Assembly: GCF_000566685.1 (NCBI RefSeq)
Contig: NZ_AZQN01000003.1
Span: forward strand, 124,001-188,000
Reading direction: 5' to 3'
DNA length: 64,000 nt
Source: Dyadobacter tibetensis Y620-1
GTDB lineage: Bacteria; Bacteroidota; Bacteroidia; Cytophagales; Spirosomataceae
Shown here: in pieces, positions 8,104 to 61,557 of the stretch
Position numbering within the stretch: position 1 is the first letter of the stretch
Layout: each line of letters starts with the position of its first letter
The notes under the pieces: generated by a model
Seen by the model: only the letters and a program-made list of their open reading frames with translations
Database searches by the model: none
Told to the model about the DNA's origin: nothing
Program-made: the position numbers and the translations under genes

Positions 8104-8212
8104 GAGGTTGATTGAAATCCGATAATTATAACGTTCTTTCCCCTATTTACGTTTGACGCGCATCGAGGTTTTTGAAATAAGGGTTAATTTTGCGACTTCA
8201 TAAAATAAAATT

Positions 8213-8758: not shown

Positions 8759-8998
8759 GCCCATAGCCATACCGGTTGCTGCTTCCTACACAAGACACGC
8801 CATGCAGCACCCGGGAACATGATAGCTGGACGAAATTAGTTACCTATACTGGAGTCCTTCAAAATTAATAAATAAGGAATAGGATATAGATCACTTAATT
8901 CTTCACAACTCGGTCTTTATCGGTGTGACTCTGCTTTGTAATGTTATTCTAAATTGGTAGATTACCTTTTTAGAACAGGACTTAGACAAGAGGATGAT

Positions 8999-45175: not shown

Positions 45176-45331
45176 ATGAACCTTTTAAATCAGACTGAGG
45201 CGGCAACGGAATGTGGGATGCCTGAAATGTGGAGCCGTAGTATCGCTGACGGCCACGATTGTGTTTTTAAAAAATGCTGCGAGAAATATAAAAAGAAAGG
45301 GAAGCACTGTAAGAAGTGCCCCAAGAAATAG
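45176..45331 (+). CDS. Very small cysteine/lysine-rich protein
   Basis: 51 residues: an acidic N-terminal part (NLLNQTEAATECGMPEMW) and a Lys/Cys-rich C-terminal part (CVFKKCCEKYKKKGKHCKKC then PKK). Six cysteines and His suggest metal binding. A well-formed promoter with an overlapping metal-regulator-type palindrome lies 26 nt upstream, which supports real expression under metal control. I do not recognise a named family. Confidence 0.65.
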   Translation: MNLLNQTEAATECGMPEMWSRSIADGHDCVFKKCCEKYKKKGKHCKKCPKK

Positions 45332-45380
45332 GCTGTATAAGCGCCTTCGAAAGTAGGGTTGCCTTCTGAACTTATATGTA

Positions 45381-46715
45381 CTATAACATCTTGCGTTTTA
45401 CGAAGCCACTCCCATAGAGAATAACAAGCAAAAGAAGTACAATTAACAATGCCTTGAGGTTTATGGAAATATTGATGAGTTCCCTAGTTCCATTTGTATC
45501 AATTTTGTATGTAAAATATTTATTTTCTGCAATTCCAAACCCATTTTTTAATGGAAATGCCTTATGATACTTAATTTCTGTAATCAATTGGCCAGTAGTA
45601 TCAATATATCCATATTTATTATCCATTCTTACAACAGCAATATAGTCATTGAAATAGGAAGTAAAGTCATACACTAAAGGTGTTTTTATTACACCCGTAG
45701 TATCAATATGACCATATCGACCATTGACACCAACTGACGCCCTATTGTCTTCCGAAAAGGATTGGACTTCATCATATTGGTAAGGAATTTTCAATTCCCC
45801 ATTATAACTAATACACCCCCATTTACTACCTTTTTTAACCCATATTCTGTTTAAAGTGGGCTTTTTGGTATCCAAAAACTGAAAGGAAATAGCAATATCG
45901 CCTGTATTTCGATCTAAATATCCGTATTGGGAATCATACTTTGCTCGTTGCAAGCGATTGGTAGAATAATCATAAGCTATATCCAACTCTTCCAAAATAA
46001 CCGGCATTTTTAGAATCTTTAGTGTATTAATTAGTCCATATAGGCCATTATTATGAATAACGGTAAGGTGAATTCTCTCTTTGATCTCCTTTTCTAAGTA
46101 GCTATTTAATTTGGGAGAAAGATTCAAAATATTGCCATTCTTATGCCAAAATAAAGTTTCCTCGGATTCATTGCCGCAGGAATAAGCCTCAATTGCATTT
46201 TTTATTAAAAAATCATTCTTGAACAAATATGTTGGAAGCTGAGAAACACATTTTCCGGTATTGTCAATATACTTTAAGGCATAGTGGTCTTTAATTGGTT
46301 CGATAACCCATGCCCTACCATTACTAAATTTGCTTGCTGATTTATAAATTGGATCAATAACAATACTCCCTTTATTGTTTAAGTAGCCATGCACTCCATA
46401 GGGTTGTGAATCATCTTTTGCAACAACAAATTCCGCTAACCCATTGCTAAATAAACCGATATCCCGGTATGCACGAGTAAGCCTATTTCCGCTACTGTCC
46501 ACTAAGAACGTTTTGGGGATACCACAATAGGTGGTTCGTTTTTGTGCAATGAAAACTCCCCCTGATTCAATTACAGAGGTGTAATTACTTCTCCATTCGT
46601 GTGCTTTATTTGAATTTTCGCAGAAACCATTTGAATTATAGAAATTTGACAACATTAAAACAAGAATCAACAAATTCACTTTTGGTGAATGTGGTTTTAT
46701 AATTTGATTTTCCAT
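45381..46715 (-). CDS. Secreted or membrane-anchored WG-repeat protein
   Basis: 444 residues with an N-terminal signal/anchor (VNLLILVLMLSNFYNSNGF) and at least five WG-type repeats such as YGYLDRNTGDIAI, KWGCISYNGELKIPYQYDEV, YGHIDTTGVIKTPLVYDF and YGYIDTTGQLITEIKY. A C-terminal hydrophobic segment followed by basic residues (ALLIVLLLLVILYGSGFVKR) may anchor it. It is the last leftward gene of the peptide island, just downstream of precursor 1. A role in immunity or surface display is possible but unproven. Confidence 0.75.
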   Translation of the reverse strand: MENQIIKPHSPKVNLLILVLMLSNFYNSNGFCENSNKAHEWRSNYTSVIESGGVFIAQKRTTYCGIPKTFLVDSSGNRLTRAYRDIGLFSNGLAEFVVAKDDSQPYGVHGYLNNKGSIVIDPIYKSASKFSNGRAWVIEPIKDHYALKYIDNTGKCVSQLPTYLFKNDFLIKNAIEAYSCGNESEETLFWHKNGNILNLSPKLNSYLEKEIKERIHLTVIHNNGLYGLINTLKILKMPVILEELDIAYDYSTNRLQRAKYDSQYGYLDRNTGDIAISFQFLDTKKPTLNRIWVKKGSKWGCISYNGELKIPYQYDEVQSFSEDNRASVGVNGRYGHIDTTGVIKTPLVYDFTSYFNDYIAVVRMDNKYGYIDTTGQLITEIKYHKAFPLKNGFGIAENKYFTYKIDTNGTRELINISINLKALLIVLLLLVILYGSGFVKRKML

Positions 46716-46827
46716 TCGGTTTTAAATTAAAACTCCTGTTCTGTCTTATAATTTTTACTACTTTAATCTGATGTCTAAATCGTTTGTCAAGTTTAAATCA
46801 ATGGTAAGGTTATTTGTATATTAGGTT

Positions 46828-47092
46828 CTATTTAGGTAACGCTTGAATACTTTTATTAGGGTTTATCCTAAAGTTTGTTCTAAGGTAAACCATAAATTTA
46901 ACAGGTCTTACCGTGCACCCACCACCTTGATTGCTATCATTACAAATCCAACCCGCTTCCTTTTCGCCAGCTGTAGTAAAGCAAGCACTCATTGCTCCGG
47001 TGCAAAAACAGCGATATCCGTCCCCCTCCCCCCACAACATTCTTCATTTGTGCCCTTGTCAGTGCAAAGGCACTAAAGCTAGAAAAACTCAT
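46828..47092 (-). pseudogene. Double-glycine precursor peptide 1, frameshifted at a G tract
   Basis: The ATG at 47092 starts a leader nearly identical to the other precursors (MSFSSFSAFALTRAQMKNVVGG minus two positions). Right after the GG site come tracts of six and five G. In the leader frame the product is a short nonsense core; in the next frame a plausible cysteine-rich core of about 65 residues follows (GDGYRCFCTGAMSACFTTAG ... GWICNDSNQGGGC, five Cys), ending at 46828. Removing one G restores a single ORF. Either a real frameshift, slippage-controlled expression, or a sequence error. Confidence 0.8.
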
Positions 47093-47154
47093 GGTTGCTA
47101 AGGATTTAAGGTTTAAAAATATATTTACTGATTTTCGAAAATCCTTAGGGAATG

Positions 47155-47236
47155 GGTATGATTTGCTTACTAATAATTTCATGTACTTCCTCGCTGTGCA
47201 GTTCGGGGAATGGGGGGGACTCATTGTTTTTTCCAT
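47155..47236 (-). pseudogene. 5' remnant of an HlyD-type adaptor gene
   Basis: Positions 47171-47215 match the start of the HlyD gene at 49681-49725 in 43 of 45 bases, coding for PFPELHSEEVHEIIS. Here it begins with its own ATG at 47236 but is frameshifted in a run of seven C, and its reading frame then runs into KQIIPIP and stop just before precursor 1. Everything downstream of about codon 25 of the adaptor is missing. Confidence 0.8.
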
Positions 47237-47297
47237 TTTCTTATTCAGAAATCTTAAGGATTTTGGAATCAGTGGCTATAACTTTTGATATATGGTA

Positions 47298-47331
47298 TGT
47301 AAATCAAATGGAGCACTTCATTTGATTTACA
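47298..47331 (-). terminator. Hairpin downstream of the precursor-2 module
   Basis: A 13-bp perfect stem (47298-47310 with 47319-47331) and an 8-nt loop, located after the 151-residue gene and before the HlyD remnant/precursor 1. No strong T tract, so terminator or processing site. Confidence 0.6.
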
Positions 47332-47393
47332 CAGGTTGATGTAGTTGAAATGGTAGGAGCCATTTCCTTCGAAGCCCAAAAAAGATATTCAAG

Positions 47394-47849
47394 TCATTGG
47401 TTTTTAAGTAGGCTGGTCAATGCCAAAAGCATAGTATCATGCAGGTTTGAAGAATTGTAGAGAACAGGGTAGTTTTTAACAAAAATATCTCTTTCCCTAA
47501 ATAAGGCTCCTGTCTTTGAGTTCACAAGTTTAATATTTATGCAATAAGCAAGTGGAGCAGTATTCATTATTGAGGTAAAGCATGCCCCTGTACTAATTTT
47601 ACCCTTTAGTAAATAGGCAGCATCCGAAGAATCGGAATGGTATATATTAAGAGAGTCTAAAATCAATAAGGTAGCTTTAGTGTATTTATCAGCCAGTAAG
47701 GAGTCATTTATAATATTAGTCTCAAAAATGACTTGATTAATGGACAATTCGGATTCCCAAGAATTATTGGGAATGTCTTCTTCGATCCTAATAGTAAAGG
47801 CCAGAAGGACGAAAGCATAAACAATTGATAAGGCTCTTAATTTTAACAT
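47394..47849 (-). CDS. Unknown secreted protein following precursor 2
   Basis: 151 residues with an N-terminal signal sequence (LRALSIVYAFVLLAFTI). The mature part is a mixed alpha/beta domain with ISTGACFTSIMNTAPLAYCI containing two cysteines. No family recognised. It follows precursor 2 by about 60 nt across a hairpin. Similar placing of secreted proteins behind other precursors in this island hints at immunity or accessory function (inference). Confidence 0.6.
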   Translation of the reverse strand: MLKLRALSIVYAFVLLAFTIRIEEDIPNNSWESELSINQVIFETNIINDSLLADKYTKATLLILDSLNIYHSDSSDAAYLLKGKISTGACFTSIMNTAPLAYCINIKLVNSKTGALFRERDIFVKNYPVLYNSSNLHDTMLLALTSLLKNQ

Positions 47850-47869
47850 AGCTTAAAGGATTAAAAATT

Positions 47870-47899
47870 AGCACTTTCCGTCTTTATGATGAAAGTGCT
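47870..47899 (-). terminator. Hairpin directly after precursor 2
   Basis: Arms AGCACTTTC (47870-47878) and GAAAGTGCT (47891-47899), 9 bp, with a 12-nt loop, 9 nt past the precursor stop. Probably an attenuator that keeps precursor expression above that of the following gene. Confidence 0.6.
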
Positions 47900-47907
47900 T
47901 AAATAAA

Positions 47908-48087
47908 TTAAATATTAAATCCTACGCACTTAGTACAACTCGAAGTTGAGCTACAATAGGTATATGCTGCATTAAAATCTGCAAAGCAGTATTTCATATC
48001 ATTACAACATACATAATCGTAGCCCCCAACAACATTCTTCATTTCCGCCCTCGTCAATTCAAAGGCACTAAAATTTGATAAACTCAT
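47908..48087 (-). CDS. Double-glycine precursor peptide 2 (59 aa)
   Basis: Leader of 22 residues (MSLSNFSAFELTRAEMKNVV plus GG), then a 37-residue core YDYVCCNDMKYCFADFNAAY ... CTKCVGFNI with six cysteines, including a CC pair and CxxC. The leader matches the other precursors and ends in the GG site cleaved by C39-peptidase exporters, one of which (831 aa) lies in the same island. The start ATG is preceded by the shared upstream region. The product is probably a disulfide-rich or otherwise crosslinked exported peptide. Confidence 0.82.
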   Translation of the reverse strand: MSLSNFSAFELTRAEMKNVVGGYDYVCCNDMKYCFADFNAAYTYCSSTSSCTKCVGFNI

Positions 48088-48345
48088 GATTTCTAATAAT
48101 TTAAGGTTTAAAAAATATATTTACTGATATTCGAAAATCCTTAGGGAATGGATGTGCTATGCTTGGCTTGGTTTAATAAGGTTACGATGTTTCCTAGGTC
48201 TTTTAATTGAAAGGCTGTAGGTAAGAATAAAATGGTTTTTTGCATGAGACAACTCATTTGAGGTGCAAGTATAATTAAATTATACACAAGAAAAGTGCAT
48301 AAAATTCGCTCAATTTGCCTCGATAATTGGTTCAGTTTTATTTTT
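48088..48345 (-). repeat. Precursor upstream region, copy A
   Basis: This 258-bp region upstream of precursor 2 is homologous along its whole length to 59985-60243 upstream of precursor 5. It includes a partial GATTTTCGAAAATC-type palindrome (48126-48139), a short ORF (48141-48245), and a perfect palindrome GTATAATTAAATTATAC (48269-48285). Confidence 0.85.
48141..48245 (-). CDS. Conserved short upstream ORF, copy A (34 aa)
   Basis: Reads MQKTILFLPTAFQLKDLGNI then VTLLNQAKHSTSIP and stop. Copy B at 60056-60142 aligns without indels; third-position differences in Pro9, Lys15, Leu17, Gly18, Ile20 and Thr22 are synonymous, which points to selection on protein. It may be a leader peptide or a small effector. 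The stop lies immediately before the conserved palindrome near 48126. Confidence 0.55.
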   Translation of the reverse strand: MQKTILFLPTAFQLKDLGNIVTLLNQAKHSTSIP

Positions 48346-48360
48346 GAGCGGAAAGAGCAC

Positions 48361-48456
48361 ATATTGGTTGATCCGCAGTCACCTGACCAGGAAATTTCGT
48401 ATAATTGATCAGTGAAATAGCATACAATGTCGCCTCTTCCATCAACATTTTTCATT
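48361..48456 (-). pseudogene. Truncated precursor remnant fused to the HlyD 3' end
   Basis: Reads MKNVDGRGDIVCYFTDQLYE then ISWSGDCGSTNM, clearly a relative of precursor 3 (ADIICYFTDKANKISWSGDC ...). Its leader is missing on one side, where the sequence joins the end of the HlyD gene, and the core is cut after GSTNM, where it joins the upstream region of precursor 2. A dead cassette left by recombination. Confidence 0.85.
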
Positions 48457-49759
48457 TCCCTCCATCTCGTATGGTGGCAATAAGTCGTTCTGCAAGCCGT
48501 TTGTCTGCGGTAATAATTTCTGCTGTACCTTTCATGCCGTTGCGATAGCTTAGCTTACGCTTATACCGGGTCGTTAATTGGCTTGGGAGCGCAACATACC
48601 CCCAATACAGACTGTCGCGCCCTGGTGTTTGCGACAGTTTGGTAAGGCTTCCTGTTACCATTCCGAACTCCCGGTAAGGATAGCCATCTAACTTTATCAA
48701 TACTTCTTGTCCTTCCACGATTTTGCCTAAATTAACCTGTGGAATTTTTACAATCCCTTCGAGTTGACCGGCTATGGGTTCTATGGTCAGTAACTCTTGG
48801 CCAATGGTCAAAAACTGCTGCTCGGTCCAAGGGCCAGAGAAGGAAACTAGGCCAGACACCGGCGCAATGAGCATATAACGCTGTTTCCAGGAGGCAATAC
48901 TACTTTGGAGTGACTGTAAGGTTTGAAGAAAGCTGTTTTTCTGTTCGGAAATGGCATTGTCTAGTTCCAGAATTTCCTTTTGTTTGGCCGTCTGCGACGA
49001 GGCGCTCTGTATCAAAGAAGCAGCTAGGTTTTTAAGGGGGAATTCCTTCGCCAGAAGTTTTGCTTTCTCCCGTTTGTATTCAATTGGAGCTATTACTTTT
49101 TGTTGGAAAAGCATTTCTTGCGTATTGAACTCCTCCTGAGCCAATTTGAAATCTCGTTTTTGCAGTTCCAGCTGCTCCATCAGATTGCTTTCTATCAGCT
49201 TCAAATCCGATACATCCTTTTCAAGTAGGGATCTTTTTTGAAGATAAAAACCGCCTGCCAAAAAGGATTTTAGTTCGGCGAGTTTTAGTGTAAAACTCTG
49301 AAAATCATTTTGTATTTCACCTAATGCGCCAAAGTTTCCAATAGAGGCTTCTCTGGCCAAGTTCCATTGACCGTGGCTAATGATTTTATTCCAGTGCTTG
49401 AGCTGATTTTCAAGGTCTAGTACTTGTTCCGCATTCGCAGTGGATTCCGTAAATGCCAAAATCTGTCCGGATTCCACTTGTTGGCCATCATTCACCAACA
49501 GCTTGGTAAGCTTACCTTCGCTGCGCACGATCATGGTACGAGGCGGATTACTCGCCGTTAATGTAAACGGAACCGGTACTATATCTGGATAACGAACCAG
49601 CCAGCAAGCGGCAATCAATATCATCACCAACCCAAAAAACAACGTTATTCCCCACCGTACCAGCTAATGAGGCGGACGACTGATAATTTCGTGTACTTCC
49701 TCGCTGTGCAGTTCGGGGAATGGGGTAGTGGTAGAATTACTTATTTTTGTTTCTATCAT
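48452..49759 (-). pseudogene. HlyD-family secretion adaptor with in-frame amber codon
   Basis: From the ATG at 49759 the frame codes MIETKISNSTTTPFPELHSE ... SRPPH, then TAG (49664-49666), then LVRWGITLFFGLV and on for a total of 435 residues if read through. Relatives have Trp here (P-x-W-[LI]-x-R-W-G-I), so TGG to TAG is the probable change. The rest is a complete adaptor: transmembrane helix, barrel-sandwich hybrid (MIVRSEGKLTKLLVNDGQQV), long coiled coil with QKVIAPIEYK, and a beta-barrel (GYPYREFGMVTGSL). Reinitiation at TTG 49642 would keep the membrane helix. Its stop codon is supplied by the precursor remnant. Confidence 0.88.
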
Positions 49760-49760
49760 T

Positions 49761-50225
49761 TCAATTGATCACTTTATTTAATTCAGAGTTAGCGTGAATT
49801 ACCATACCGCCGTCATCATCTTTCCTAACCAACATATAGTTTAGGGAAGCGTTAATTTTAATTGGTTTTTGCTTAACCACCACTCTCTGGTGGAATAGAG
49901 CTAAGTCTTTCATTATCCTTACTTTCGTATCTAGCGCACCATCATAGATCTCCACAGAACCAATACTTTGTATGCCTCCAATGGGTATAACCGATTGATT
50001 TGACTTTAAATCAATTGTAGCTGGTAAAGACAAGGAGGTATCAGCGGAATCAGCTGAATCGATGTGCCATTTTGGCTTAATGGTACTTTTAAATGTAATG
50101 ATAACTCCGACGCTAAAATTGGTTGAATTTCTCAGTTTTATCTTACATGAATATATTCCCCATCGGAGCAGGTGAGCTATTTCACAAACACTTATTCCAT
50201 TGCACTGTGCAAATGGTCGAATCAA
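49761..50225 (-). CDS. Unknown protein between TlpA and HlyD genes
   Basis: Up to 154 residues; the frame opens with a TTG and has no convincing ATG start, so the N-terminus may be damaged. Visible parts are a beta-rich domain (IYSCKIKLRNSTNFSVGVII, TIDLKSNQSVIPIGGIQSIG) and ending NYMLVRKDDDGGMVIHANSE. The stop is one base from the HlyD ATG, so it belongs to the same operon. No family recognised. Confidence 0.5.
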   Translation of the reverse strand: MIRPFAQCNGISVCEIAHLLRWGIYSCKIKLRNSTNFSVGVIITFKSTIKPKWHIDSADSADTSLSLPATIDLKSNQSVIPIGGIQSIGSVEIYDGALDTKVRIMKDLALFHQRVVVKQKPIKINASLNYMLVRKDDDGGMVIHANSELNKVIN

Positions 50226-50243
50226 CCTACAAAAACTAGATCA

Positions 50244-51686
50244 TCATTCCAGTTTTCCGATGGTGATAGAGTCTATTGGCATTTCAGGGATATGTACCTG
50301 CAATATTCTGTGTATTTGTTCGTCGTCGGCCGACGGCATTCTCGAAACCATTATTTTTCCGGTGCTGTCCAAAAGAACATAATTGGGTATTGCCAAAGGA
50401 ACGGTTTCAGTTAACCTACTGGTCATTAAAAATTGGCTAAGACTACCTTTCCTTTTGCTTTTTCTCGTTAAATAATGTTCGCTGGATCCAAATCTGTCAT
50501 TATAAAGTTTAAGTCCCGATTTCCATTTCTTTTCATCCTCATCGATGGATATACTAATAATATCCAACCCAGATGAGCCATATTGAGTCTTTATTTTTTT
50601 TAGATATGGCAAATAATAGTAACATGGCCCGCACCAACTTGCCCAAAACGTCACCATCACTACTTTACCCTTATGTTTATTTAATACCGACTCCCAACTT
50701 GAATAGGTATTATCAGGTTTTTTTAGCTTTGACTTTAATATTTTGTTAGGGTATTCAAAATTGTTGTTATCTACTTTGTCCTTCACATAGGCCAAAAGGT
50801 TCCTATCCCTACATATTGCGTAAAATCTATTTAAATACTCCTGAAAATCTGGGAGATTCAGCCACTTGTACTTTTGTAAGAGCCATGCCATTAAATAATT
50901 TTGTTGGATCCCATTAAAGTTGAGTAAAGCCGAGCTAAATTCGGTATAAAATTTATTTGCCGGATCGTCGCCCCTCAATGAATCCTTACATAGGAAGGAG
51001 TTTAAAGCGACAATGGCAGTCCGATATTCTTTTCCGCCCATCCATAATGAATCCTTATCTGTTACGGTGTCCTTTATTATCCTAATTGTATCCTGATACC
51101 ATTTAGGAATATTTAGTGTATTGGTATTTTCGCTAATATACGGTCTCAAAAGATCCACGATACGGTAATAATCCAGTTCCTTTTCCAAAGTATATTTATA
51201 TGCAGAATCACTCTTAGTAAATTTTGAAACAACCTCTTTTCGCTTCCAATGACAGGAATCTAATGTTGAGATAATCAGCTTAAAATCTGAATCTTCCGTT
51301 TTGTGTATATCAAAACCCGGATGATACACGGTGGATAAACCTGGCTCTTTTGTAAGTAAGACCAGAGCATTGTAAATGCTATCCTTATTCATTACTTCCA
51401 AATGCCCTCCTGTTTTATGACGCCCAAGAACGATCGTATCGTTTGGCATGACCAACACATTTCTTCTCGTTTGTCCGTCAGTATACGTGAATGTAATTGG
51501 AAAGGGAGCATCTATAATTCTGTCATTCTGGAGTTTCCCCCAAAACATATTTCCGAAAATATCTTCGTGATGCGCTATTTCACCTACGGCGTCATTCTCA
51601 TTTGAGTAAATCATAACGGTACTTTGACCGAAAACAGGGTAAGATAATAGCACTGCAAAACAAAAAACTTTATATAGTAAATGCAT
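50244..51686 (-). CDS. TlpA-type thioredoxin-domain protein 1
   Basis: 480 residues with a signal peptide (VFCFAVLLSYPVFGQ). A 330-residue N-terminal domain of unknown fold (beta-rich, then helical) is followed by a TlpA/ResA thioredoxin domain with VTFWASWCGPCYYYLPYLKK (CxxC near residue 350) and a cis-Pro in PLAIPNYVLLDSTGK. It should act as a periplasmic thiol-disulfide oxidoreductase. It follows precursor 3 after a hairpin; its place among Cys-rich exported peptides suggests disulfide handling of those peptides (inference). Confidence 0.82.
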   Translation of the reverse strand: MHLLYKVFCFAVLLSYPVFGQSTVMIYSNENDAVGEIAHHEDIFGNMFWGKLQNDRIIDAPFPITFTYTDGQTRRNVLVMPNDTIVLGRHKTGGHLEVMNKDSIYNALVLLTKEPGLSTVYHPGFDIHKTEDSDFKLIISTLDSCHWKRKEVVSKFTKSDSAYKYTLEKELDYYRIVDLLRPYISENTNTLNIPKWYQDTIRIIKDTVTDKDSLWMGGKEYRTAIVALNSFLCKDSLRGDDPANKFYTEFSSALLNFNGIQQNYLMAWLLQKYKWLNLPDFQEYLNRFYAICRDRNLLAYVKDKVDNNNFEYPNKILKSKLKKPDNTYSSWESVLNKHKGKVVMVTFWASWCGPCYYYLPYLKKIKTQYGSSGLDIISISIDEDEKKWKSGLKLYNDRFGSSEHYLTRKSKRKGSLSQFLMTSRLTETVPLAIPNYVLLDSTGKIMVSRMPSADDEQIHRILQVHIPEMPIDSITIGKLE

Positions 51687-51701
51687 CGGCGAAGAATTTA
51701 C

Positions 51702-51735
51702 AAGTCATACGAATGAGGGATCATTCGTATGACTT
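51702..51735 (-). terminator. Hairpin directly after precursor 3
   Basis: A 15-bp perfect stem (51702-51716 with 51721-51735) around GGGA, 19 nt past the precursor stop and 16 nt before the TlpA ATG. Probably partial terminator or RNA stabiliser. Confidence 0.75.
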
Positions 51736-51754
51736 CGTTTAATTAATTTTATAT

Positions 51755-51982
51755 TTACTCACAACGATAGTCTACTCCTGGATATCCAGCATTCGTATTA
51801 TAGTCATTGGCAGCTTTTCCTGCATAAGAAAAACAATCATCCATATTGGTTGACCCGCAATCACCTGACCAGGAAATTTTGTTCGCTTTATCAGTGAAAT
51901 AGCATATAATATCGGCTCCCCCAACAACATTCTTCATTTCTGCCCTTGTCAATGCAAAGGTACTAAAACTTTGTAAACTCAT
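51755..51982 (-). CDS. Double-glycine precursor peptide 3 (75 aa)
   Basis: Leader MSLQSFSTFALTRAEMKNVV plus GG, then a 53-residue core starting ADIICYFTDKANKISWSGDC with four cysteines and ending GYPGVDYRCE. The ATG at 51982 aligns with the other leaders; an ATG four codons upstream is in the conserved 5' region and less likely. Located between the ABC exporter and TlpA genes. A near relative survives as a remnant at 48361-48456. Confidence 0.85.
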   Translation of the reverse strand: MSLQSFSTFALTRAEMKNVVGGADIICYFTDKANKISWSGDCGSTNMDDCFSYAGKAANDYNTNAGYPGVDYRCE

Positions 51983-52018
51983 GATTTCTAACAATTTAAG
52001 TTAAAAAGTATATTTGCT

Positions 52019-52032
52019 GATTTTCGAAAATC
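52019..52032. promoter_or_regulatory. GATTTTCGAAAATC palindrome upstream of precursor 3
   Basis: A perfect 14-bp palindrome 37 nt before the ATG. The same site, exact or with one change, lies at the same position before precursors 1 (47130-47143), 2 (48126-48139) and 5 (60023-60036). It could be an operator or an mRNA hairpin. Confidence 0.6.
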
Positions 52033-52087
52033 CATAGTAATAAAATAACTCAAATGTCTGATGGCTGACCGCAGACAGCCGCCTAAT

Positions 52088-54583: not shown

Positions 54584-54635
54584 ACGTGCATAAAATTAAA
54601 ATTACCCTGTCAGTTAAAAAAATCAACTAAGTATC

Positions 54636-54735
54636 CAAAATACATTGCCACCATACGAAGGCAGGTTGGGCCCACCGGGCAGGCGATCCTGGCCATTTGA
54701 TCGAGTTGGCGGTAGTGGGGGAAAGGTTTTGGTGT
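54636..54735 (-). pseudogene. 5' remnant of a second C39 exporter gene
   Basis: Matches the first 28 codons of the exporter (KPFPHYRQLDQM ... GPTCLRMVA) but the start codon is gone, and the active-site segment DC is replaced by ARIACPV. The frame ends at a stop soon after FGY. It lies just upstream of the intact exporter start, in the same direction. Confidence 0.82.
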
Positions 54736-54746
54736 TTCTTATAAAA

Positions 54747-55619
54747 TTAAACCAGCCAAGGAAGTTTATGATTAAATTTTTTTAACATTACTTCATTTCC
54801 ATTAATGAAAAAATCTGGGTAAAGTGGTTTATCATTCTTCAATCGATAATTAACTGTAAACTTTTTAGTTGATCTAAAACTGGGCGAATTTTTCTTTAAA
54901 TGATGGAAGAAGTATCTATCTGCTTTAAGGGGGTGATACCAATATTGTGTTGATTTTAGTAATTCGTTTCTTTTTATTAGGTAGCAATTAGTGTCTATCA
55001 GTTTGTTTTGATTTGAAATTGGTTTATAATCACCAATACTTTCACAATTGTCCCCTATAACGAAGTCACCATCCTCAGTAAAAATATTTCTCATTGAATA
55101 TGACCAATCCAAATTGAATTTGGTAATTAATTCGATTAGTGTTTCTAAATGATTTGCCTCATACCAATTATCTTCATCTAAGAATCCAATATATTCAGAA
55201 TTGATTAAATATGGCATTGATGCATATATTCTGTGACCATTCATTCCATTTTTACCAGTATTGTAAGGGAGAATAATAACCTTCACATTAGGCGCATTTA
55301 GTTGGTTAATAGTTTTTTGGACATTATTCCAATTATGCTCACCGTCCACAACAATTAGGTGTAAAATGTCTTTATAATTCTGATTTTGGATACTTTCAAC
55401 CGCTTTTTTTAGATGTTTACTTCCAGTGGTGGGGGTAATGATTGTTACAGTTGGGATACCATGTTGGTTTTCTATAATCTCACTTACTTTACTTAATACC
55501 TTTTTTCGGTCCAATTCGATAGGATTTCTAACTCTTTTACTACTACTAATTTTGCCTAATCTCATCAGAAAATTGTTAATATTCGTTAGAACAAAATATT
55601 TGATTGAATAGAAGTTCAT
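54747..55619 (-). CDS. GT2-like glycosyltransferase 1
   Basis: 290 residues with a GT-A fold: TVTIITPTTGSKHLKKAVES at the nucleotide-binding strand, a long LHLIVVDGEHNW, and the metal motif YIGFLDEDNWYEANHLETL (DxD-like, about residue 150). Starts only 8 nt after the next glycosyltransferase ends, so both are co-transcribed. The target is unknown; given the operon, transfer of sugar to an exported peptide is possible, but cell-surface glycans are an equally valid guess. AT-rich compared with the core genome. Confidence 0.82.
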   Translation of the reverse strand: MNFYSIKYFVLTNINNFLMRLGKISSSKRVRNPIELDRKKVLSKVSEIIENQHGIPTVTIITPTTGSKHLKKAVESIQNQNYKDILHLIVVDGEHNWNNVQKTINQLNAPNVKVIILPYNTGKNGMNGHRIYASMPYLINSEYIGFLDEDNWYEANHLETLIELITKFNLDWSYSMRNIFTEDGDFVIGDNCESIGDYKPISNQNKLIDTNCYLIKRNELLKSTQYWYHPLKADRYFFHHLKKNSPSFRSTKKFTVNYRLKNDKPLYPDFFINGNEVMLKKFNHKLPWLV

Positions 55620-55627
55620 TTTAAATT

Positions 55628-56446
55628 CTATTTATAATTGTTATTCCATAAAATTGGTTTCCATCCTAAATTGTCTATAAGATAATGTAAGACTTCCTCT
55701 CTTTTTTCATAAAATCCACGTTTGGTCCAAGATGCAAACTCATCTCGACCGTAGGCAATTTTTAAATTGCCCGTATTTTCCTCGTTATTTTGACTTAAAA
55801 CAATCGTTTTTACATCTAATTTCAATTTACAAACCGCAGAAAGGTGCATGTCTTCTGACATGTCTAGCGTCAAGGGCGGAACTTGCCAAAATGTTTTGAT
55901 CCACTCGGCCTGGAAAAACCAACCATTACATCCAAAGTCGACAAGGGTATTCTCTTTGCAAAAATGAAACGTAAAGCTAGGTGTTATATCTCCAAAATAG
56001 TGTTTTTCAATTTCATTTCGAGTTCCAAGAAAATAGCAGTTGTTTGGTATCCTTCTTCCTGCACAACTTATGATATAATCTCCTCTTGATGAGGTATGAA
56101 GACATTTTTCAATCCATTTCTTGCCTGGGATTACATCATCATCGACTATCCACACATATTTCGTTTTTACATATTGAGCAAATGAAAATCTGCCGAAATA
56201 TTTCAAGTCAACACTTGACTTAAGGTAACTGATTTCGGGGTAATATTTGAATATTTGACTTATGTTTACATGATTCTCGCACTGAATCACCCAAATTACA
56301 CTTGGCTTAACTGTTTGGCTAAATAATGAATCCAGTTGTTCCAGCAGATTGTTTCTTTTCCAAATAGTAAGAATGACTGTCAGATTAGAGGAGCTATTTA
56401 GCGGGAGTGTTTCGAATTCGGGTTTCAACATTTTTATTATTGACAT
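55628..56446 (-). CDS. GT-A fold glycosyltransferase 2
   Basis: 272 residues. NLTVILTIWKRNNLLEQLDS and VWIVDDDVIPGKKWIEKCL (DDD metal site about residue 102) define a GT-A enzyme related to GT2/exostosin-like transferases; LDMSEDMHLSAVCKL carries the ED pair typical of the acceptor side. Forms a pair with the following transferase. AT-rich. Confidence 0.8.
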   Translation of the reverse strand: MSIIKMLKPEFETLPLNSSSNLTVILTIWKRNNLLEQLDSLFSQTVKPSVIWVIQCENHVNISQIFKYYPEISYLKSSVDLKYFGRFSFAQYVKTKYVWIVDDDVIPGKKWIEKCLHTSSRGDYIISCAGRRIPNNCYFLGTRNEIEKHYFGDITPSFTFHFCKENTLVDFGCNGWFFQAEWIKTFWQVPPLTLDMSEDMHLSAVCKLKLDVKTIVLSQNNEENTGNLKIAYGRDEFASWTKRGFYEKREEVLHYLIDNLGWKPILWNNNYK

Positions 56447-56546
56447 TTACATGCTATTTGAAAATGGTTCAATTTTTAAATACGGTATGTAACTAATATT
56501 ACAAGAAGCCATTATTGAGACTTATACATCTATAATTAATTCTAAA

Positions 56547-57782
56547 TCATTTTATTAAATTGGTAACATTTGATACCATATCAGATCCTTCTGCTCGGTA
56601 TAAAATGTTCATATTCTTGTCTATTAAAATGGTTGTCGGAAATGCTTCAATATGAAACAGTTGTACCAATGGATCGTCAATTGCTCCAATTTCAAACACA
56701 TGTTGCCAATTCATATTATATTGCTTAATCAACTTTTGAAGCTTTGTGGTGTCCCTACTCCTTTCCCATGCAATGCTTACCATTCCTAAAACCTTTGAAG
56801 CACCAAATTGGCTATGTATTTTCTTTAAGTCGGGAATAGCCTGAATGCAGGGAGCGCACCAACTTCCCCAGAAATCAATTAGCATATAATCATGATCAAA
56901 AAAACTGGAATCTTCGATTTTGCTTTTCAATAGATGGGTGATTTCTTGCGGTAATCGATTATGATGTCGAATACCGGAGGTGTAGGGCTCTTTTTCAATG
57001 TTCAGAAGTAGGCTATCACCAAAAAAAGATACATGCTTAATCGTAACTGAACGCTCACCAAGCCGGAACGGATCTCCAATTTTAGGTTCAGGGGTAACGG
57101 CTAATTTAGTTTCCTCATCATTGTCAGTAATTTTAAAATGGGTATTTGAGTAATTGGCGTCAACCTCACCTGATTTGGAAAAACTGAGGTTATAATTTTT
57201 ACCATCAATTTCTATATTAGCATGTTTGGTATTTGTGACTTCAAAATATACTTCTAAAAACTCTTCAGTTGATATTGCCGAAAGAAAATGTGGTTCATAA
57301 GGAAGAATTTTAACTGGAACCTTTCGGCGGAAAATAGCTTTGTGAAAATACTCATAGTCTAGCATAATATTTTCAACAGCATCAACTGCCTTTTTTCTGG
57401 CACTTTTTACAATAGGGAAAACGAATTTTTCATCGTCTGAAAAATCATTATCACGATTTAAATCTGCAATGATATATTTCTCGTTTTTTAATAGACCGCT
57501 CAGGACATTTAACTTTGAATGCTTTGGGACCCTATCTGCAATTGAGTCATTTTGAAAAGATAGCTGATAGATCGAGTAGTGATCCCATTGCGTAGGAATC
57601 CCTTTAAATGCGTCTAAATCTTGTATTTTTGTGCCTTTTATTATCCTAGTAGGATCGGTCTTATGAGGAGTTGTATTGGTGAGAACAAGGATGCTGTCTG
57701 CTGATACTATATCTGCAATGACCAGTCCCGAATTAAAAGAAAATATCAGGAATATTATCAATAGGTGACTTTTCATAATCAA
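56547..57782 (-). CDS. TlpA-type thioredoxin-domain protein 2
   Basis: 411 residues with a signal sequence (HLLIIFLIFSFNSGLVIAD). The first about 280 residues are a beta-rich region of unknown family; the thioredoxin domain has LIDFWGSWCAPCIQAIPDL (CxxC near residue 308) and the cis-Pro in HIEAFPTTILIDKN. It should work on thiols in the periplasm. It sits 11 nt after the gene behind precursor 4 and before the two glycosyltransferases. Confidence 0.82.
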   Translation of the reverse strand: MIMKSHLLIIFLIFSFNSGLVIADIVSADSILVLTNTTPHKTDPTRIIKGTKIQDLDAFKGIPTQWDHYSIYQLSFQNDSIADRVPKHSKLNVLSGLLKNEKYIIADLNRDNDFSDDEKFVFPIVKSARKKAVDAVENIMLDYEYFHKAIFRRKVPVKILPYEPHFLSAISTEEFLEVYFEVTNTKHANIEIDGKNYNLSFSKSGEVDANYSNTHFKITDNDEETKLAVTPEPKIGDPFRLGERSVTIKHVSFFGDSLLLNIEKEPYTSGIRHHNRLPQEITHLLKSKIEDSSFFDHDYMLIDFWGSWCAPCIQAIPDLKKIHSQFGASKVLGMVSIAWERSRDTTKLQKLIKQYNMNWQHVFEIGAIDDPLVQLFHIEAFPTTILIDKNMNILYRAEGSDMVSNVTNLIK

Positions 57783-57793
57783 AGTAGGAAAAA

Positions 57794-58522
57794 TTATTTA
57801 CAAGTGACACTTTGCATCAATTCTAAATCCCGTAAGTATTCTCCTTTTGCCATGTGTCTTTTTACCAATTCTAGATAAATATGCTCCAAGCTACCCGAAA
57901 ATTCATTTTTTGCTTCCTTTAGGTAATTGCCATTTTTTAGTAATGTTTCTCTATAATAGGGTAAAAAATAGTTCAAATTTTTACAGATATTTTTATAACT
58001 ATTACAATACTGAAGTTTTAGAAAGGAGGTGTAAACAAGTTCAATGTTTCTACTCTCACTCATTTTCATTTCATTTAAGAAGAATAGCAGTCTGTTATTA
58101 GAAGTACTCAGATCGTAAAATGCTTCGAGGTTGGAAACACAGATATATTTTACCAACCACTCTGAACAAAATCGACGATAAAGCATAAGGTGAGGTGAAT
58201 CCCTCAGTTGATCAATGATATGTTCATAATTTTTGAGTAAACTATCCCTATTGGCAATAGATCCAGTTTGATTCCTACTTAAGCCTGTCCAAGGTATTCC
58301 CATTTTGGTCAAGAATTTTTTTTCTTCCCTTTGAATTATATTGGTAGCGGCCGTATCGTTTTTGATTGAACTAAATTTATAAGACATAAAAAAGTCTGAC
58401 GCATCAATACGTTCCACTAAAATTGTATCACACTCATATTTAGATGGTTTTAATGTGCTGCCCATGGCCGTGTTTAAAATAAGACATAAAAAATACGGTA
58501 TAAGAATGTGCAGAGTATTCAT
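57794..58522 (-). CDS. Unknown secreted helical protein following precursor 4
   Basis: 242 residues with a signal peptide (ILIPYFLCLILNTAMGS). The mature protein is mostly alpha-helical with several cysteines (HLMLYRRFCSEWLVKYICVS, LQYCNSYKNICKNLNYF). No recognised family. It precedes TlpA 2 closely. Possibly an immunity or accessory protein (inference from position). Confidence 0.65.
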   Translation of the reverse strand: MNTLHILIPYFLCLILNTAMGSTLKPSKYECDTILVERIDASDFFMSYKFSSIKNDTAATNIIQREEKKFLTKMGIPWTGLSRNQTGSIANRDSLLKNYEHIIDQLRDSPHLMLYRRFCSEWLVKYICVSNLEAFYDLSTSNNRLLFFLNEMKMSESRNIELVYTSFLKLQYCNSYKNICKNLNYFLPYYRETLLKNGNYLKEAKNEFSGSLEHIYLELVKRHMAKGEYLRDLELMQSVTCK

Positions 58523-58542
58523 ATATATTATAAGTTAGTATG

Positions 58543-58581
58543 ATCTATCACCAGATTATTTGAATTAATCTGGTGATAGAT
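58543..58581 (-). terminator. Hairpin directly after precursor 4
   Basis: A 16-bp perfect stem (58543-58558 with 58566-58581) and a 7-nt loop, 26 nt past the precursor stop and 21 nt before the next ATG. Confidence 0.78.
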
Positions 58582-58606
58582 TGAACAATGAAAGTTTATG
58601 GAAATA

Positions 58607-58846
58607 TTATTGGCACGGAACACTTGAACTTTTTGTGTATCCGCTATCTCCATTACTTGTTTCCCAATATGCGGCTCCGGCAGAACCATCACTACAACTG
58701 TTTGAGGAAGAATACCACTCGTATGTTACAGTGCTATTAGGACTACCATCTTTTGTAGTCATACTACAGGAACAATTGCTTCCCCCAACAACATTCTTCA
58801 TTTCCGCTCTTGTCAATACAAAGGCACTAAAACTAGATAAACTCTT
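58607..58846 (-). CDS. Double-glycine precursor peptide 4, start codon lost
   Basis: The leader KSLSSFSAFVLTRAEMKNVV plus GG matches the others, but the expected ATG is AAG (58844-58846). ATT lies one codon upstream, an in-frame TAG four codons upstream, and a TTG inside the leader (58816) is another possible start. The 57-residue core SNCSCSMTTKDGSPNSTVTY ... SSSVPCQ is Ser/Thr/Gly-rich with four cysteines. It may be silent, use an unusual start, or reflect a sequence error. Confidence 0.7.
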   Translation of the reverse strand, partial: KSLSSFSAFVLTRAEMKNVVGGSNCSCSMTTKDGSPNSTVTYEWYSSSNSCSDGSAGAAYWETSNGDSGYTKSSSVPCQ

Positions 58847-58992
58847 AATTTTTACCTATTCAAGGCAAACTGAACAGTTTATTTAGCTGCATATATTCAT
58901 CAATTTTCCCTCTTGTAAATCTTTGACATATGTCAATTTGATAGTTTATAATAACATTAAGCGTTGGTATTTCCGCTAATGCAAAAGCTCAT

Positions 58993-59652
58993 TCAACGAA
59001 TTTTTACCAAAATTGCTGGAAAGTGATATTCAATATGCTGATCGAGAATAGTTTGATATTTAGTTGCTATATCAAATTGTTGTTGCTGATTTACACTATT
59101 ACCAGGCAATTTTAATAATTGCTTGTCCCATCCAACATCTTCCCTTTTAGAAAAAAAGTAAGCTTTATCAGCCTTTTTAATTAAACCTATTTCTAGTTCG
59201 CCAATCGAATTTTTAGGTTTTACCTCAAATCCGATAAAGAAGTTTCCAGTAATCCTAGTACGAAGTTTGAATTTCTTCCATCCACTTTTTTTATGGGTAG
59301 TTTTAATTCTACTAGTATAAAACTCATGTTCTTTCGGCCTCCCCAACGAATCTTGGAATATTTTTACTTGATAACTTTGAGTCAATCCTTCTTTTTGAAT
59401 TGTATAAAATTGAATTTTTTTTAATTTTATACAATTAGAAGTATTCATAGGAATTACAAACATTACACCCGATTGATTCAGATCATTTCGAATACTTCCA
59501 ACAAGAATTCGGTGTTTTTTAAAAAAAACATATGATTCGATTTTAAAATTGTCGGCACCATACTTATATTTTATTTTAGCAAACACTCTAAAACTATTGA
59601 AAAGAGTAAGGATAGTCATTGTTAAAATTAGAATCGACTGTTTTAATGCCAT
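58993..59652 (-). CDS. Unknown secreted protein following precursor 5
   Basis: 219 residues with a signal peptide (SILILTMTILTLFNSFRVFA). The mature part is beta-rich and basic (YTSRIKTTHKKSGWKKFKLR; ITGNFFIGFEVKPKNSIGEL), a jelly-roll-like pattern. No family recognised. It is the first gene after precursor 5. Confidence 0.65.
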   Translation of the reverse strand: MALKQSILILTMTILTLFNSFRVFAKIKYKYGADNFKIESYVFFKKHRILVGSIRNDLNQSGVMFVIPMNTSNCIKLKKIQFYTIQKEGLTQSYQVKIFQDSLGRPKEHEFYTSRIKTTHKKSGWKKFKLRTRITGNFFIGFEVKPKNSIGELEIGLIKKADKAYFFSKREDVGWDKQLLKLPGNSVNQQQQFDIATKYQTILDQHIEYHFPAILVKIR

Positions 59653-59685
59653 GATTACGTAAATTAGGGTACATCAAAAAAGCAA

Positions 59686-59711
59686 ATTATCCCATTAACA
59701 TTACGGATAAT
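59686..59711 (-). terminator. Weak hairpin after precursor 5
   Basis: Arms ATTATCC and GGATAAT (7 bp) with a 12-nt loop; on the minus strand a TTTGCTTTTTTG tract follows. Confidence 0.5.
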
Positions 59712-59759
59712 ATGAATCTATTCCCCGTAAATTATTTAAAATAAATATGCAAAAAAACA

Positions 59760-59984
59760 TTATGGAATAGGTTCAGATTTACATTTTGAGGGAGATATTT
59801 TCGTCCATACAACCCAAGTTTCTTTTACCTTTTTATTTTTGATTCGTTGACAAGAATCTAAATGATAACAATATCCTTCTGGATCAGTGGTTGTACCTAA
59901 ATCAGTACAAACAACTTTTCCCCCAACAACATTTTTCATTTCCGCCCTTGTCAATGCAAAGGCACTAAAACTAGATAAACTCAT
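59760..59984 (-). CDS. Double-glycine precursor peptide 5 (74 aa)
   Basis: Leader MSLSSFSAFALTRAEMKNVV plus GG, which is the consensus of the set, then a 52-residue basic core KVVCTDLGTTTDPEGYCYHL ... SPSKCKSEPIP with four cysteines. The first precursor behind the regulator, with a complete upstream region (59985-60243). Confidence 0.86.
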   Translation of the reverse strand: MSLSSFSAFALTRAEMKNVVGGKVVCTDLGTTTDPEGYCYHLDSCQRIKNKKVKETWVVWTKISPSKCKSEPIP

Positions 59985-60243
59985 GATTTCTAATAATTTA
60001 AGGTTTAAAAAATATATTTACTGACTTTCGAAAATCCTTAGGGAATGGGTGTGCTCTATATATTTTGGCTTAAAACAGTTAAAATAATGCCTAAGTCCTT
60101 TATATGAATGGCGGCGGGTAAGAATAAAATGGTTTTTTGCATGAGACAACTCATTTGAGTTACAAGTATAATTAAATTATACACAAGAATAGTGCATAAA
60201 ATTGGCGCAATTTGCCTCGATTATTGGTTCAATTATAATTTTT
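59985..60243 (-). repeat. Precursor upstream region, copy B
   Basis: Homologous to copy A (48088-48345). Contains the variant palindrome GACTTTCGAAAATC (60023-60036), the short ORF (60056-60142), AACTCATTTGAGTT (60148-60161) and the perfect palindrome GTATAATTAAATTATAC (60166-60182). Confidence 0.85.
60056..60142 (-). CDS. Conserved short upstream ORF, copy B (28 aa)
   Basis: Reads MQKTILFLPAAIHIKDLGII then LTVLSQNI and TAG. The alignment with copy A continues past this stop to the shared TAA, so this copy is shorter by six codons. Conserved core MQKTILFLPxAxxxKDLGxI is hydrophobic. Function unknown. Confidence 0.55.
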   Translation of the reverse strand: MQKTILFLPAAIHIKDLGIILTVLSQNI

Positions 60244-60285
60244 GACCGAATAATAATTTTTAGGTAACCCATGGCAGATTTTTCC

Positions 60286-60302
60286 ATATAAGTGACTTAT
60301 AT
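60286..60302. promoter_or_regulatory. Perfect palindrome, candidate operator of the XRE regulator
   Basis: ATATAAGT-G-ACTTATAT, an 8-1-8 perfect inverted repeat, 49 nt before the regulator ATG and in the divergent region between regulator and precursor cluster. Suits binding by a dimeric HTH protein and control of both directions. Confidence 0.6.
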
Positions 60303-60350
60303 TAGCATAGTATACACTCAGCTACAGGGAAAATAGAACACACAACACGC

Positions 60351-60734
60351 ATGAAAATAGGGCATAAACTTCGTCGGTTGAGGCAATACAGGCGTTTTTC
60401 GACACGGGAGCTTGCGGATCTTCTTGGCATCGGTCAAAATACCTATGTGAGTTGGGAGCTTGACAAAACGTATCCATCCTTCAAATACTTCGTTCCTTTG
60501 GCCGAGGCCCTAGGGCTCTGCCCTATTTCCTTAATGGCTTTTCTATTTGAGCAGATATCACTGGAAGAATTATTGATGATCACCGAAACTGTTCCCGATT
60601 TAAAGGAAGCGGTCATCTTCTACAAGAATCACAAGGACAAATTAACTGCGGTGGAACATTCCGATATTAGGGAAGAACTGCTGAGATTGAATCATATGAT
60701 TCAGAAAAGCACGCTGACCCAAAGCTCCGAGTAA
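60351..60734 (+). CDS. XRE-family HTH regulator
   Basis: 127 residues. The N-terminal HTH (LRRLRQYRRFSTRELADLLG, then IGQNTYVSWELDKTYPS) is a clear Cro/CI-type domain, residues about 5-60. The remainder is helical, likely for dimerisation (LKEAVIFYKNHKDKLTAVEH). Divergent from the precursor operon, with a palindrome between them, so the probable local regulator of the island. Confidence 0.85.
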   Translation: MKIGHKLRRLRQYRRFSTRELADLLGIGQNTYVSWELDKTYPSFKYFVPLAEALGLCPISLMAFLFEQISLEELLMITETVPDLKEAVIFYKNHKDKLTAVEHSDIREELLRLNHMIQKSTLTQSSE

Positions 60735-60793
60735 GATCTTGTCGGAGGTGCTGAGGGTAAAATTCTTGAAGGTGCGGCTTGATTTTTTGTGGC

Positions 60794-60819
60794 CAAGAAT
60801 GGGCCATAGCCCATCCTTG
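60794..60819. terminator. Bidirectional hairpin between regulator and lptB
   Basis: ATGGGC/GCCCAT stem (60799-60804, 60809-60814) extended by CAAG/CTTG beyond one mismatch, lying between convergent genes. Confidence 0.55.
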
Positions 60820-60825
60820 ATTGTT

Positions 60826-61557
60826 TTATACCTTTCTTTTTAGTTCAAAATGCTGTCCCAGGTAGACCCTGCGTACCACCTCGTCGGCGGCGAGCTCCTC
60901 GGCAGTCCCTTGTTTCAAAATTTTTCCTTCAAAAAGCAGATAAGCCCGGTCGGTAATCGACAGGGTTTCGTTTACATTATGGTCGGTGATGAGTATTCCA
61001 ATATTTTTATGCTTCAGTTTGGCTACAATACTCTGTATATCTTCTACAGCAATGGGATCTACCCCGGCAAAGGGTTCGTCGAGCAGGATGAACTTTGGGT
61101 CCACGGCCAGGGCTCGGGCAATTTCCGTACGTCGGCGCTCTCCCCCCGAGAGCACCATGCCCTTGCTTTTGCGGACATGCTCCAGGTGAAATTCTTCCAA
61201 GAGCTCTTCCACTTTTTCTTTCTGGCGGCTTTTGGGTAAATCACTCATTTCCAGTACCGCCTTGATATTTTCTTCAACTGTCAGCGTTCGGAATACCGAG
61301 GCCTCTTGGGCCAGGTAACCCAGGCCAAGCCTGGCTCTTTTGTACATGGGTAGTTTGGTGATGTCCATGTCGTCAAGGTACACCTTCCCACTGTTCGGCT
61401 TTACCAGACCTACAGCCATATAAAACGAGGTGGTCTTCCCAGCTCCATTGGGACCCAAGAGGCCCACAATTTCTCCCTGCTCTACTTGGTAGCTGACGTT
61501 GTCGTTGACCAATCGGGCACCGTATTTTTTTACAAGATTTTCAGTTTTTAGAATCAT
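60826..61557 (-). CDS. lptB: LPS export ABC transporter ATP-binding protein
   Basis: LptB powers lipopolysaccharide extraction with LptFG. 243 residues with Walker [17 protein letters not shown], the LptB-typical [18 protein letters not shown], signature [17 protein letters not shown], Walker [17 protein letters not shown] and switch His in [13 protein letters not shown]. Located 21 nt downstream of recJ, in the same direction. Confidence 0.95.

Follow-up and report, generated by a model that had tools for sequence, protein, structure and literature searches.

What does the AT-rich island beside lptB in Dyadobacter tibetensis Y620-1 make and export, and is the copy found there still working? 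We addressed this in a stretch of 64,000 nucleotides (contig NZ_AZQN01000003.1, positions 124,001 to 188,000 of the forward strand; the window below), in which an earlier note, made from the letters alone, had read five small genes with a common double-glycine (GG) leader and a C39-peptidase ABC exporter as a multi-peptide antimicrobial or signalling system. The island was compared across 48 Dyadobacter genomes. Our reading, which we hold with a probability of about 0.5, is that it encodes a glycocin-like export system (not a proven glycocin) for disulfide-bonded, probably glycosylated bacteriocin-type peptides, that their cores are exchanged by recombination at the leader, and that this copy is partly decayed. 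Within this reading we infer the glycosylation, the oxidation by VKOR- and TlpA-type proteins, the antagonism, the immunity conferred by the downstream genes and the core exchange at the leader.

The 22-residue leader, LTRAEMKNVVGG, is present in five minus-strand copies with 0-1 mismatch. Its recurrence is not due to chance, because no match was found outside the island at E <= 0.01 in three genome searches and because other Dyadobacter genomes carry it too. Matches at E < 1e-3 were obtained in 8/48 genomes including D. tibetensis itself (G000, G016, G024, G027, G035, G040, G042 and G044), and in five of the others (G027, G035, G040, G042 and G044) the leader adjoins the same exporter; beside a weak leader match in locus L092 no related gene was found. 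The leader family, the exporter and an HlyD-type adaptor recur together in other Dyadobacter genomes and in Rhabdobacter roseus, which supports the multi-peptide C39-export system of the earlier note; homologous loci with leader plus C39 exporter, whose absence from relatives had been named as grounds for giving that proposal up, are thus present. The note had also suggested comparing the leaders with natural-product precursor models. They resemble TIGR04149 (scores 13.3-18.8 for the four copies scanned, the pre1 open reading frame (ORF) giving no row, and at best 22.2 in the genome search; cut-off 25) and NF047798 (11.9-14.4 for all five copies; cut-off 23.5), and membership of either family was rejected because all scores lie under the curated cut-offs.

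Three of the five precursors (pre2, pre3 and pre5; Table 1) are intact. The leader frame of pre1 encodes 50 residues, one of them Cys, before it stops at 46940, and the Cys-rich stretch lies in a different frame, so that 46828-47092 is not the single gene that it had been taken for. At the head of the pre4 leader there is no ATG, GTG or TTG, and the same is true at the matching place in the closely related genome G016; the pre4 relative in D. psychrotolerans (L086:2324) starts with ATG. The idea that all five precursors are functional was therefore dropped. Phase variation at the G-rich junction of leader and core (pre1, and contig C15 of G016) was also considered and rejected, as the tracts are not long and simple decay is the more economical account. 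The cores in the window have 37-57 residues and 4 or 6 Cys, and against their G016 relatives pre3 and pre5 each have 83% core identity with all Cys kept. In a wider set of 37 cores, rich in Ser, Gly, Cys, Ala, Thr and Tyr, the number of Cys is even in 33 (four in 16 cores, six in 16, eight in one; the remainder have three in 3 cores and five in 1). This set leaves out pre1, the G016 copies, the 34-residue ORF of L091 and P0127 (100% identical to pre2), as well as peptides with another leader (L033:9604, L036, L093, L111, L112, L113, L114, L116 and L117), and the L087 and L088 copies are counted as P0124, P0125 and P0121.

Domain matches confirmed the exporter, the HlyD-type gene, two thioredoxin-fold proteins, two PF00535 glycosyltransferases and, on the plus strand, the divergent XRE regulator, all of which had been named before from the translations. 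C39 peptidase domains cut after GG, and ABC/HlyD pairs export the product. In an alignment with seven relatives the exporter keeps the C39 motifs QMDCG, His and Asp, among which we take the catalytic residues to lie. Its linker carries a repeat-containing insertion and differs in length among these relatives; at 54119-54221 two in-frame copies of a 43-bp repeat (98% identical) stand between the His and Asp motifs. At E <= 1e-100 the exporter had matches in 28/48 genomes, 13 of them with a relative of at least 60% identity. Near the exporter relatives the same genes recur in varying subsets, i.e. a UDP-glycosyltransferase, a C39-like/VKOR/thioredoxin protein, a GG precursor, a TlpA-like thioredoxin, GT-A glycosyltransferases and HlyD.

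Is the exported peptide glycosylated? At least one glycosyltransferase is present in the fetched stretch (12-21 kb) at 15/16 exporter loci, the exception being L090. These 16 loci are 15 loci of 13 Dyadobacter genomes, the window included, plus that of R. roseus, with exporter relatives of at least 57% identity (tblastn; at least 60% in the exporter search of the genus); L089 and L117 overlap and share their glycosyltransferases. Counting just the loci found through leader or exporter queries, i.e. leaving out L032 and L033 (found with GT1) and the window as the query itself, a glycosyltransferase is present at 12/13; as a rough base rate, a genome holds 27-49 PF00535 proteins. The subfamily of GT2 was matched in 12/48 genomes at E <= 1e-10. 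In eleven of these a gene covers most of the query (that of G024 is split over two frames; a match of 55 residues in G009 was dropped), and in 11/11 a C39 exporter gene stands no more than 6 kb away; this exporter is a 44-45% relative in G026, G030, G007 and G013, and in G039 the relationship is more distant. The glycosyltransferase families change between loci (PF00535, PF25342, PF01755, PF04488, PF02485, PF13704 and PF00201).

These counts bear on a rival explanation, in which the peptides are disulfide-bonded, unglycosylated bacteriocins of the bacteroidetocin type and have no connection with the glycosyltransferases, which a variable island would simply carry as cargo. The available text on bacteroidetocins describes a GG leader, four Cys, a thiol oxidoreductase and a C39-type ABC transporter (PMC6671954), and L090 has peptide, VKOR and exporter with no recognised glycosyltransferase, both of which suit this explanation. 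Glycosyltransferases at 12/13 loci, the invariable linkage of the GT2 subfamily to a C39 exporter and two fusions of VKOR to a glycosyltransferase speak against it, and we consider it unlikely.

The GT2 model (predicted local distance difference test, pLDDT, 91.5) resembles the GlcNAc-transferase domain of heparosan synthase, and EXTL2. Profile searches of the PDB led from GT1 to SpsA and heparosan synthase and from GT2 to GalT1 and one putative enzyme (E 0.04-0.06). SunS is absent from the listed PDB-profile matches of GT1 and GT2 and from the fold rows shown, an absence that excludes nothing.

VKOR (PF07884) was found at 17 places in 14/48 genomes, 13 of them within ~7 kb of a C39 exporter, and at the level of genomes it co-occurs with a close exporter (11/13 genomes that have one vs 3/35 that do not; Fisher p 1e-6). 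In 11 of 12 aligned VKOR proteins both the four VKOR Cys and the thioredoxin CxxC are conserved; L062 has partly lost them. Their N-terminal C39-like domain has no conserved Cys column, and may bind leaders without cutting them, presumably as HlyB does. Fusions of VKOR to a glycosyltransferase occur in two genomes. One is in D. tibetensis itself, where contig C12 (L063, C12:30001-48000, at 7888-10371) encodes an 827-residue protein made up of C39-like, VKOR and GT_PLOD domains, the C39-like domain scoring under the Pfam cut-off in one scan and above it in another; the other, in G039, has 798 residues and joins C39-like, VKOR and PF00535 domains. The C12 locus has open frames for a UDP-glycosyltransferase, the VKOR-glycosyltransferase, a C39 exporter and HlyD; a search of it for a GG precursor gave no convincing candidate.

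From these parts we propose the following order of events. The XRE regulator would control the unit, and the precursors would be made with the common leader. Cytoplasmic GT-A glycosyltransferases would put sugar on the Ser/Thr/Tyr/Cys-rich core; the C39 domain of the exporter would then cut after GG, and the ABC/HlyD pair would export the core. VKOR- and TlpA-type proteins would form or shuffle the disulfides, a role proposed because of the even Cys numbers and the linkage. The product would most likely act on competing bacteria, with the gene downstream of each core as a candidate immunity or partner gene. Finally, the leader and the 5' untranslated region (UTR; together ~125-150 bp) would serve as a repeated DNA anchor, at which recombination could join new cores and their downstream genes to the shared tag, a step suggested by comparison with one close genome. 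A more far-reaching version, a polymorphic glycosylated microcin system, seems to us distinctly doubtful. Here the leader/UTR anchor would swap cores and downstream genes, start-less and truncated copies would be a silent store, the sugar would be varied by swapping the glycosyltransferase family beside a common exporter, and the degenerate C39-like domain would bring the leader to VKOR for oxidation.

The comparison with G016 bears on the recombination step. The island shares five matching blocks with that genome, with ten edges in total. The final base of the pre4 leader is precisely where a 93% block (58781-59958) ends. A 97% block (50123-52037) reaches to the outer border of the pre3 UTR repeat; past that point the window continues with the exporter and G016 with VKOR. 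Around pre4, 193/200 upstream bases and 62/66 leader bases are the same in both genomes, and in the core 46 of 150 bases align, 32 of them identical. The UTR and leader of the G016 pre3 are closer to those of pre5 (59/59 and 63/66) than to those of pre3 (51/57 and 59/66), and its core matches that of pre3 at 140/150 bases. At the pre5 leader repeat and its fused remnant, two stretches match separate places in one G016 locus, 59919-60121 to L084:5504-5706 (87%) and 60103-60648 to L084:8563-9104 (85%). XRE relatives (85-87%) head both matching units in G016. Elsewhere in the same locus (L084:9238-11880), long direct repeats of 78-94% identity are arrayed around a transposase-like ORF, by a look at the sequence. 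A palindrome, ATGAGTTGTCTCATGC, stands before pre2 and pre5 and was considered as an operator; because both exact copies sit inside the repeated remnant they give no independent support, and it was rejected.

Four cores have a relative in a fetched locus, and the downstream neighbour is kept with the core in 4/4 of these and the upstream neighbour in 1/4. The arrangement fits core-plus-partner modules joined to a constant leader, as judged from a few events, and u219, u242 and u151 are candidate immunity or partner genes. The same arrangement bears on a further alternative, that the products are secreted signalling or adhesive peptides, with the thioredoxins and glycosyltransferases at work in the maturation of a surface factor. 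In keeping with it, none of the scanned proteins scored above cut-off for a known bacteriocin-core or immunity family; variable cores each with its own following gene would fit antagonism better, and no receptor kinase was recognised among the scanned island proteins. We regard it as very unlikely.

Several observations weigh against a glycocin-like system with core exchange at the leader. Just two of the ten edges, 58781 and 52037, suggest exchange at the leader repeat. At 59958/60024 a stretch of ~60 bp spanning leader and UTR is deleted in G016, and the other edges lie elsewhere, one of them (47985) inside the pre2 core. Since the core that G016 has at the pre4 site is decayed too, there may have been local rearrangement there instead of functional exchange, and the whole breakpoint argument is informed by one closely related genome. 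The ratios of non-synonymous to synonymous substitution rates (dN/dS) against G016, 2.55 for the pre3 core and 0.9 for the pre5 core, mainly amino-acid changes, rest on 11 and 13 changes (pre3 leader, 0.22 on 7 changes; three flanking genes, 0.45-0.68). Four of the 37 cores have an odd number of Cys, and the set includes close relatives that are not independent. Among the fold matches of GT2 the polysaccharide GlcNAc-transferases come first and peptide ones lower, and GT1 and GT2 could serve surface polysaccharide. VKOR has no nearby exporter at 4/17 places (two on short contigs, in G016 and G024, and two in 19-kb stretches, in G028 and G007:C2), the G016 VKOR gene is split over two frames, and the exporter was not matched in G016 at E <= 1e-100. 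Finally, hlyD is interrupted by a stop 31 codons past its likely start (relatives of 430-439 residues in L087, L088 and L091 are open) and two of the five precursors are defective, so that the island copy may be dead.

The copy in D. tibetensis is partly decayed, and the UDP-glycosyltransferase and VKOR genes are present as remnants only. These remnants, the interrupted hlyD and the two defective precursors mean that function here would need help from the C12 locus, which might serve in trans as judged from its gene content, or may be lost. Could the island then be a graveyard, i.e. remnants of several such loci, currently functionless here, with the repeats as relics of duplication? The interrupted hlyD, the defective pre1 and pre4, the truncated fragment and the deleted UDP-glycosyltransferase and VKOR genes are what this would leave behind; against it, the exporter, both glycosyltransferases, both thioredoxins and three precursors are still open, Cys are kept in both cores compared with G016, and the C12 locus, as a second one, has open UDP-glycosyltransferase, VKOR-glycosyltransferase, exporter and HlyD frames. 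We think this somewhat unlikely, and continue with the glycocin-like system, partly decayed, as the preferred reading.

The island is AT-rich as described earlier, with a GC content of 0.375 vs 0.445 in the remainder of the window, though the exporter gene inside it has 0.48. In G016 the matches to the 51-residue ORF and to LptB that flank it are 66 bp apart (L133:9872/9939), and in 7/7 further Dyadobacter genomes examined lptB and a homologue of the gene at 40490 are 0.3-3.1 kb apart, which leaves no place for a 15-kb island. The island is therefore most likely an acquired insertion; no recombinase was recognised among the scanned island proteins. The 51-residue ORF at its edge is Lys/Cys-rich, has no leader and is conserved in G016 (65%). 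The earlier statement that the window lacks LanM, radical SAM and GRASP enzymes stood for radical SAM as far as it was followed: a regular expression for the CxxxCxxC motif had no match in the listed ORFs of at least 130 residues in 1-41700, and LanM and GRASP enzymes were not searched for window-wide.

Other exporter loci show further associations. L106-L109 (G026, G030, G007 and G013) combine the 44-45% exporter with a GT2-subfamily enzyme, and L106 also holds a Branch-type glycosyltransferase, a DUF6625 protein and, by a look at the sequence, a radical-SAM-like ORF. DUF6625 (PF20330) proteins adjoin these exporters at L089:16888-17727 and L106:3595-4476, a position that suggests another glycosyltransferase-like family. 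L112 (G017:C21, 1203-14949) has a close exporter relative, PF01755- and PF02485-type glycosyltransferases, a Cys-rich GG peptide and ORFs that look LanB/LanC-like; with this content, the exporter type may also serve another class of ribosomally synthesised and post-translationally modified peptides (RiPPs). Around the C39-like/VKOR genes in the 19-kb stretches of G028 (L141:8642-10318) and G007:C2 (L142:8942-10579) the exporter, precursor and glycosyltransferase queries had no match; by sequence look, these genes adjoin response-regulator-like and LanB-like ORFs.

Table 1. Position, strand and character of the island and its features in the window.
Feature	Position	Strand	Remarks
Inserted island	45332..60825	.	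between 51-residue ORF (45176-45331) and lptB (60826-61557)
pre1 copy	46828..47092	-	leader intact, Cys-rich stretch in another frame
47-bp copy of hlyD 5' part, before pre1 leader repeat	47169..47215	-	96% to 49679-49725
u151, unknown protein downstream of pre2	47394..47849	-	kept beside pre2-core remnant in G016
pre2 precursor, intact	47908..48087	-	37-residue core, 6 Cys
Second copy of repeat/remnant, before pre2	48023..48350	-	87% over 329 bp to 59920-60248
Sixth, truncated leader-plus-core fragment, pre3 family	48360..48458	-	directly after hlyD; 85% DNA identity to 51842-51940
hlyD, HlyD-type adaptor gene	48452..49759	-	PF13437; interrupted by in-frame stop (49666-49664)
u154, unknown 154-residue ORF	49761..50225	-	no Pfam match
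TlpA/ResA-like thioredoxin-fold protein, 480 residues	50244..51686	-	PF08534/PF13905; ResA model under cut-off
pre3 precursor, intact	51755..51982	-	53-residue core, 4 Cys
pre3 leader/5'UTR repeat	51917..52037	-	upstream neighbour differs from G016 beyond 52037
C39 peptidase-ABC exporter, 831 residues, open	52088..54583	-	PF03412, PF00664, PF00005
GT1 glycosyltransferase	54747..55619	-	PF00535; SpsA/WrtF/TarP-like fold
GT2 glycosyltransferase	55628..56446	-	PF00535; invariant DDD at 102-104
TlpA/ResA-like thioredoxin-fold protein, 411 residues	56547..57782	-	PF13905; ResA model under cut-off
u242, unknown protein downstream of pre4	57794..58522	-	37% relative beside pre4 relative in D. psychrotolerans (L086)
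pre4 copy	58607..58846	-	leader + 57-residue core, 4 Cys; no standard start codon at leader head
u219, unknown protein downstream of pre5	58993..59652	-	no Pfam match; kept beside pre5 in G016
pre5 precursor, intact	59760..59984	-	22-residue leader + 52-residue core, 4 Cys
Leader/5'UTR repeat with fused remnant, before pre5	59919..60154	-	remnant of VKOR 3' end and UDP-glycosyltransferase 5' end
XRE-type regulator, divergent	60351..60734	+	PF12844/PF01381

If the preferred reading is right, Bacteroidota have a modular means of changing one exported peptide in three layers, i.e. core, disulfides and sugar, while its leader stays constant. This would hint at glycopeptide antimicrobials in the phylum, where to our knowledge few have been characterised. 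The leader/UTR repeat with an exporter and VKOR-glycosyltransferase neighbours would then be a simple genetic mark for finding more such loci, and one could test directly if core switching is driven by these repeats.

How does the system compare with known ones? No published description of this combination of genes was recognised among the matches listed, and a paper on glycocin clusters beyond Firmicutes is absent from them; we claim no priority. The pneumococcal blp region also has GG-leader bacteriocins with exchangeable core and immunity genes, in a Gram-positive host, with unmodified peptides and under quorum-sensing control. Prochlorosins likewise combine a constant leader with very variable cores, and recombination has been proposed as a source of their diversity (PMC10783134); unlike the island peptides they are lanthipeptides with a leader of the Nif11 family, modified by ProcM, and no enzyme was seen in common. 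TIGR04149, a family of radical-SAM-modified RiPPs, and NF047798, one of bacteriocin-like leaders, are approached by the leader under their cut-offs; no radical SAM partner was recognised in the island. Bacteroidetocins (class IIf) likewise come from Bacteroidota, but the account at hand gives them a 15-residue leader and a 42-residue four-Cys core, as against 22 and 37-57 residues here, and the island type differs from them in its many unrelated cores, its glycosyltransferases and its C39-like/VKOR proteins. For some clusters in a survey of Bacteroidales RiPPs, glycosyltransferases and GlyS domains are mentioned (PMC10352776).

With glycocins (sublancin, glycocin F and thermoglycocin) the likeness lies in the gene content. 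Most characterised glycocins have a five-Cys core with two nested disulfides, whereas island-type cores mostly have 4 or 6 Cys and just 1/37 has five; since in addition no relation to SunS was shown, we do not file the system as a glycocin. Unlike glycocin clusters, the island-type loci add HlyD and VKOR, have several precursors per locus and a Bacteroidota host, and vary the glycosyltransferase family from locus to locus. The sublancin cluster consists of a Cys-rich precursor, a glycosyltransferase, a thioredoxin-like pair and a C39 transporter. The thermoglycocin thg cluster has the same layout in the available description (PMC12457901), and the island matches it in its GG-leader precursors with a C39 ABC exporter and in its thioredoxin-like proteins. 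With two glycosyltransferases and two thioredoxins, the locus therefore resembles a glycocin cluster more than the locus of an unmodified bacteriocin.

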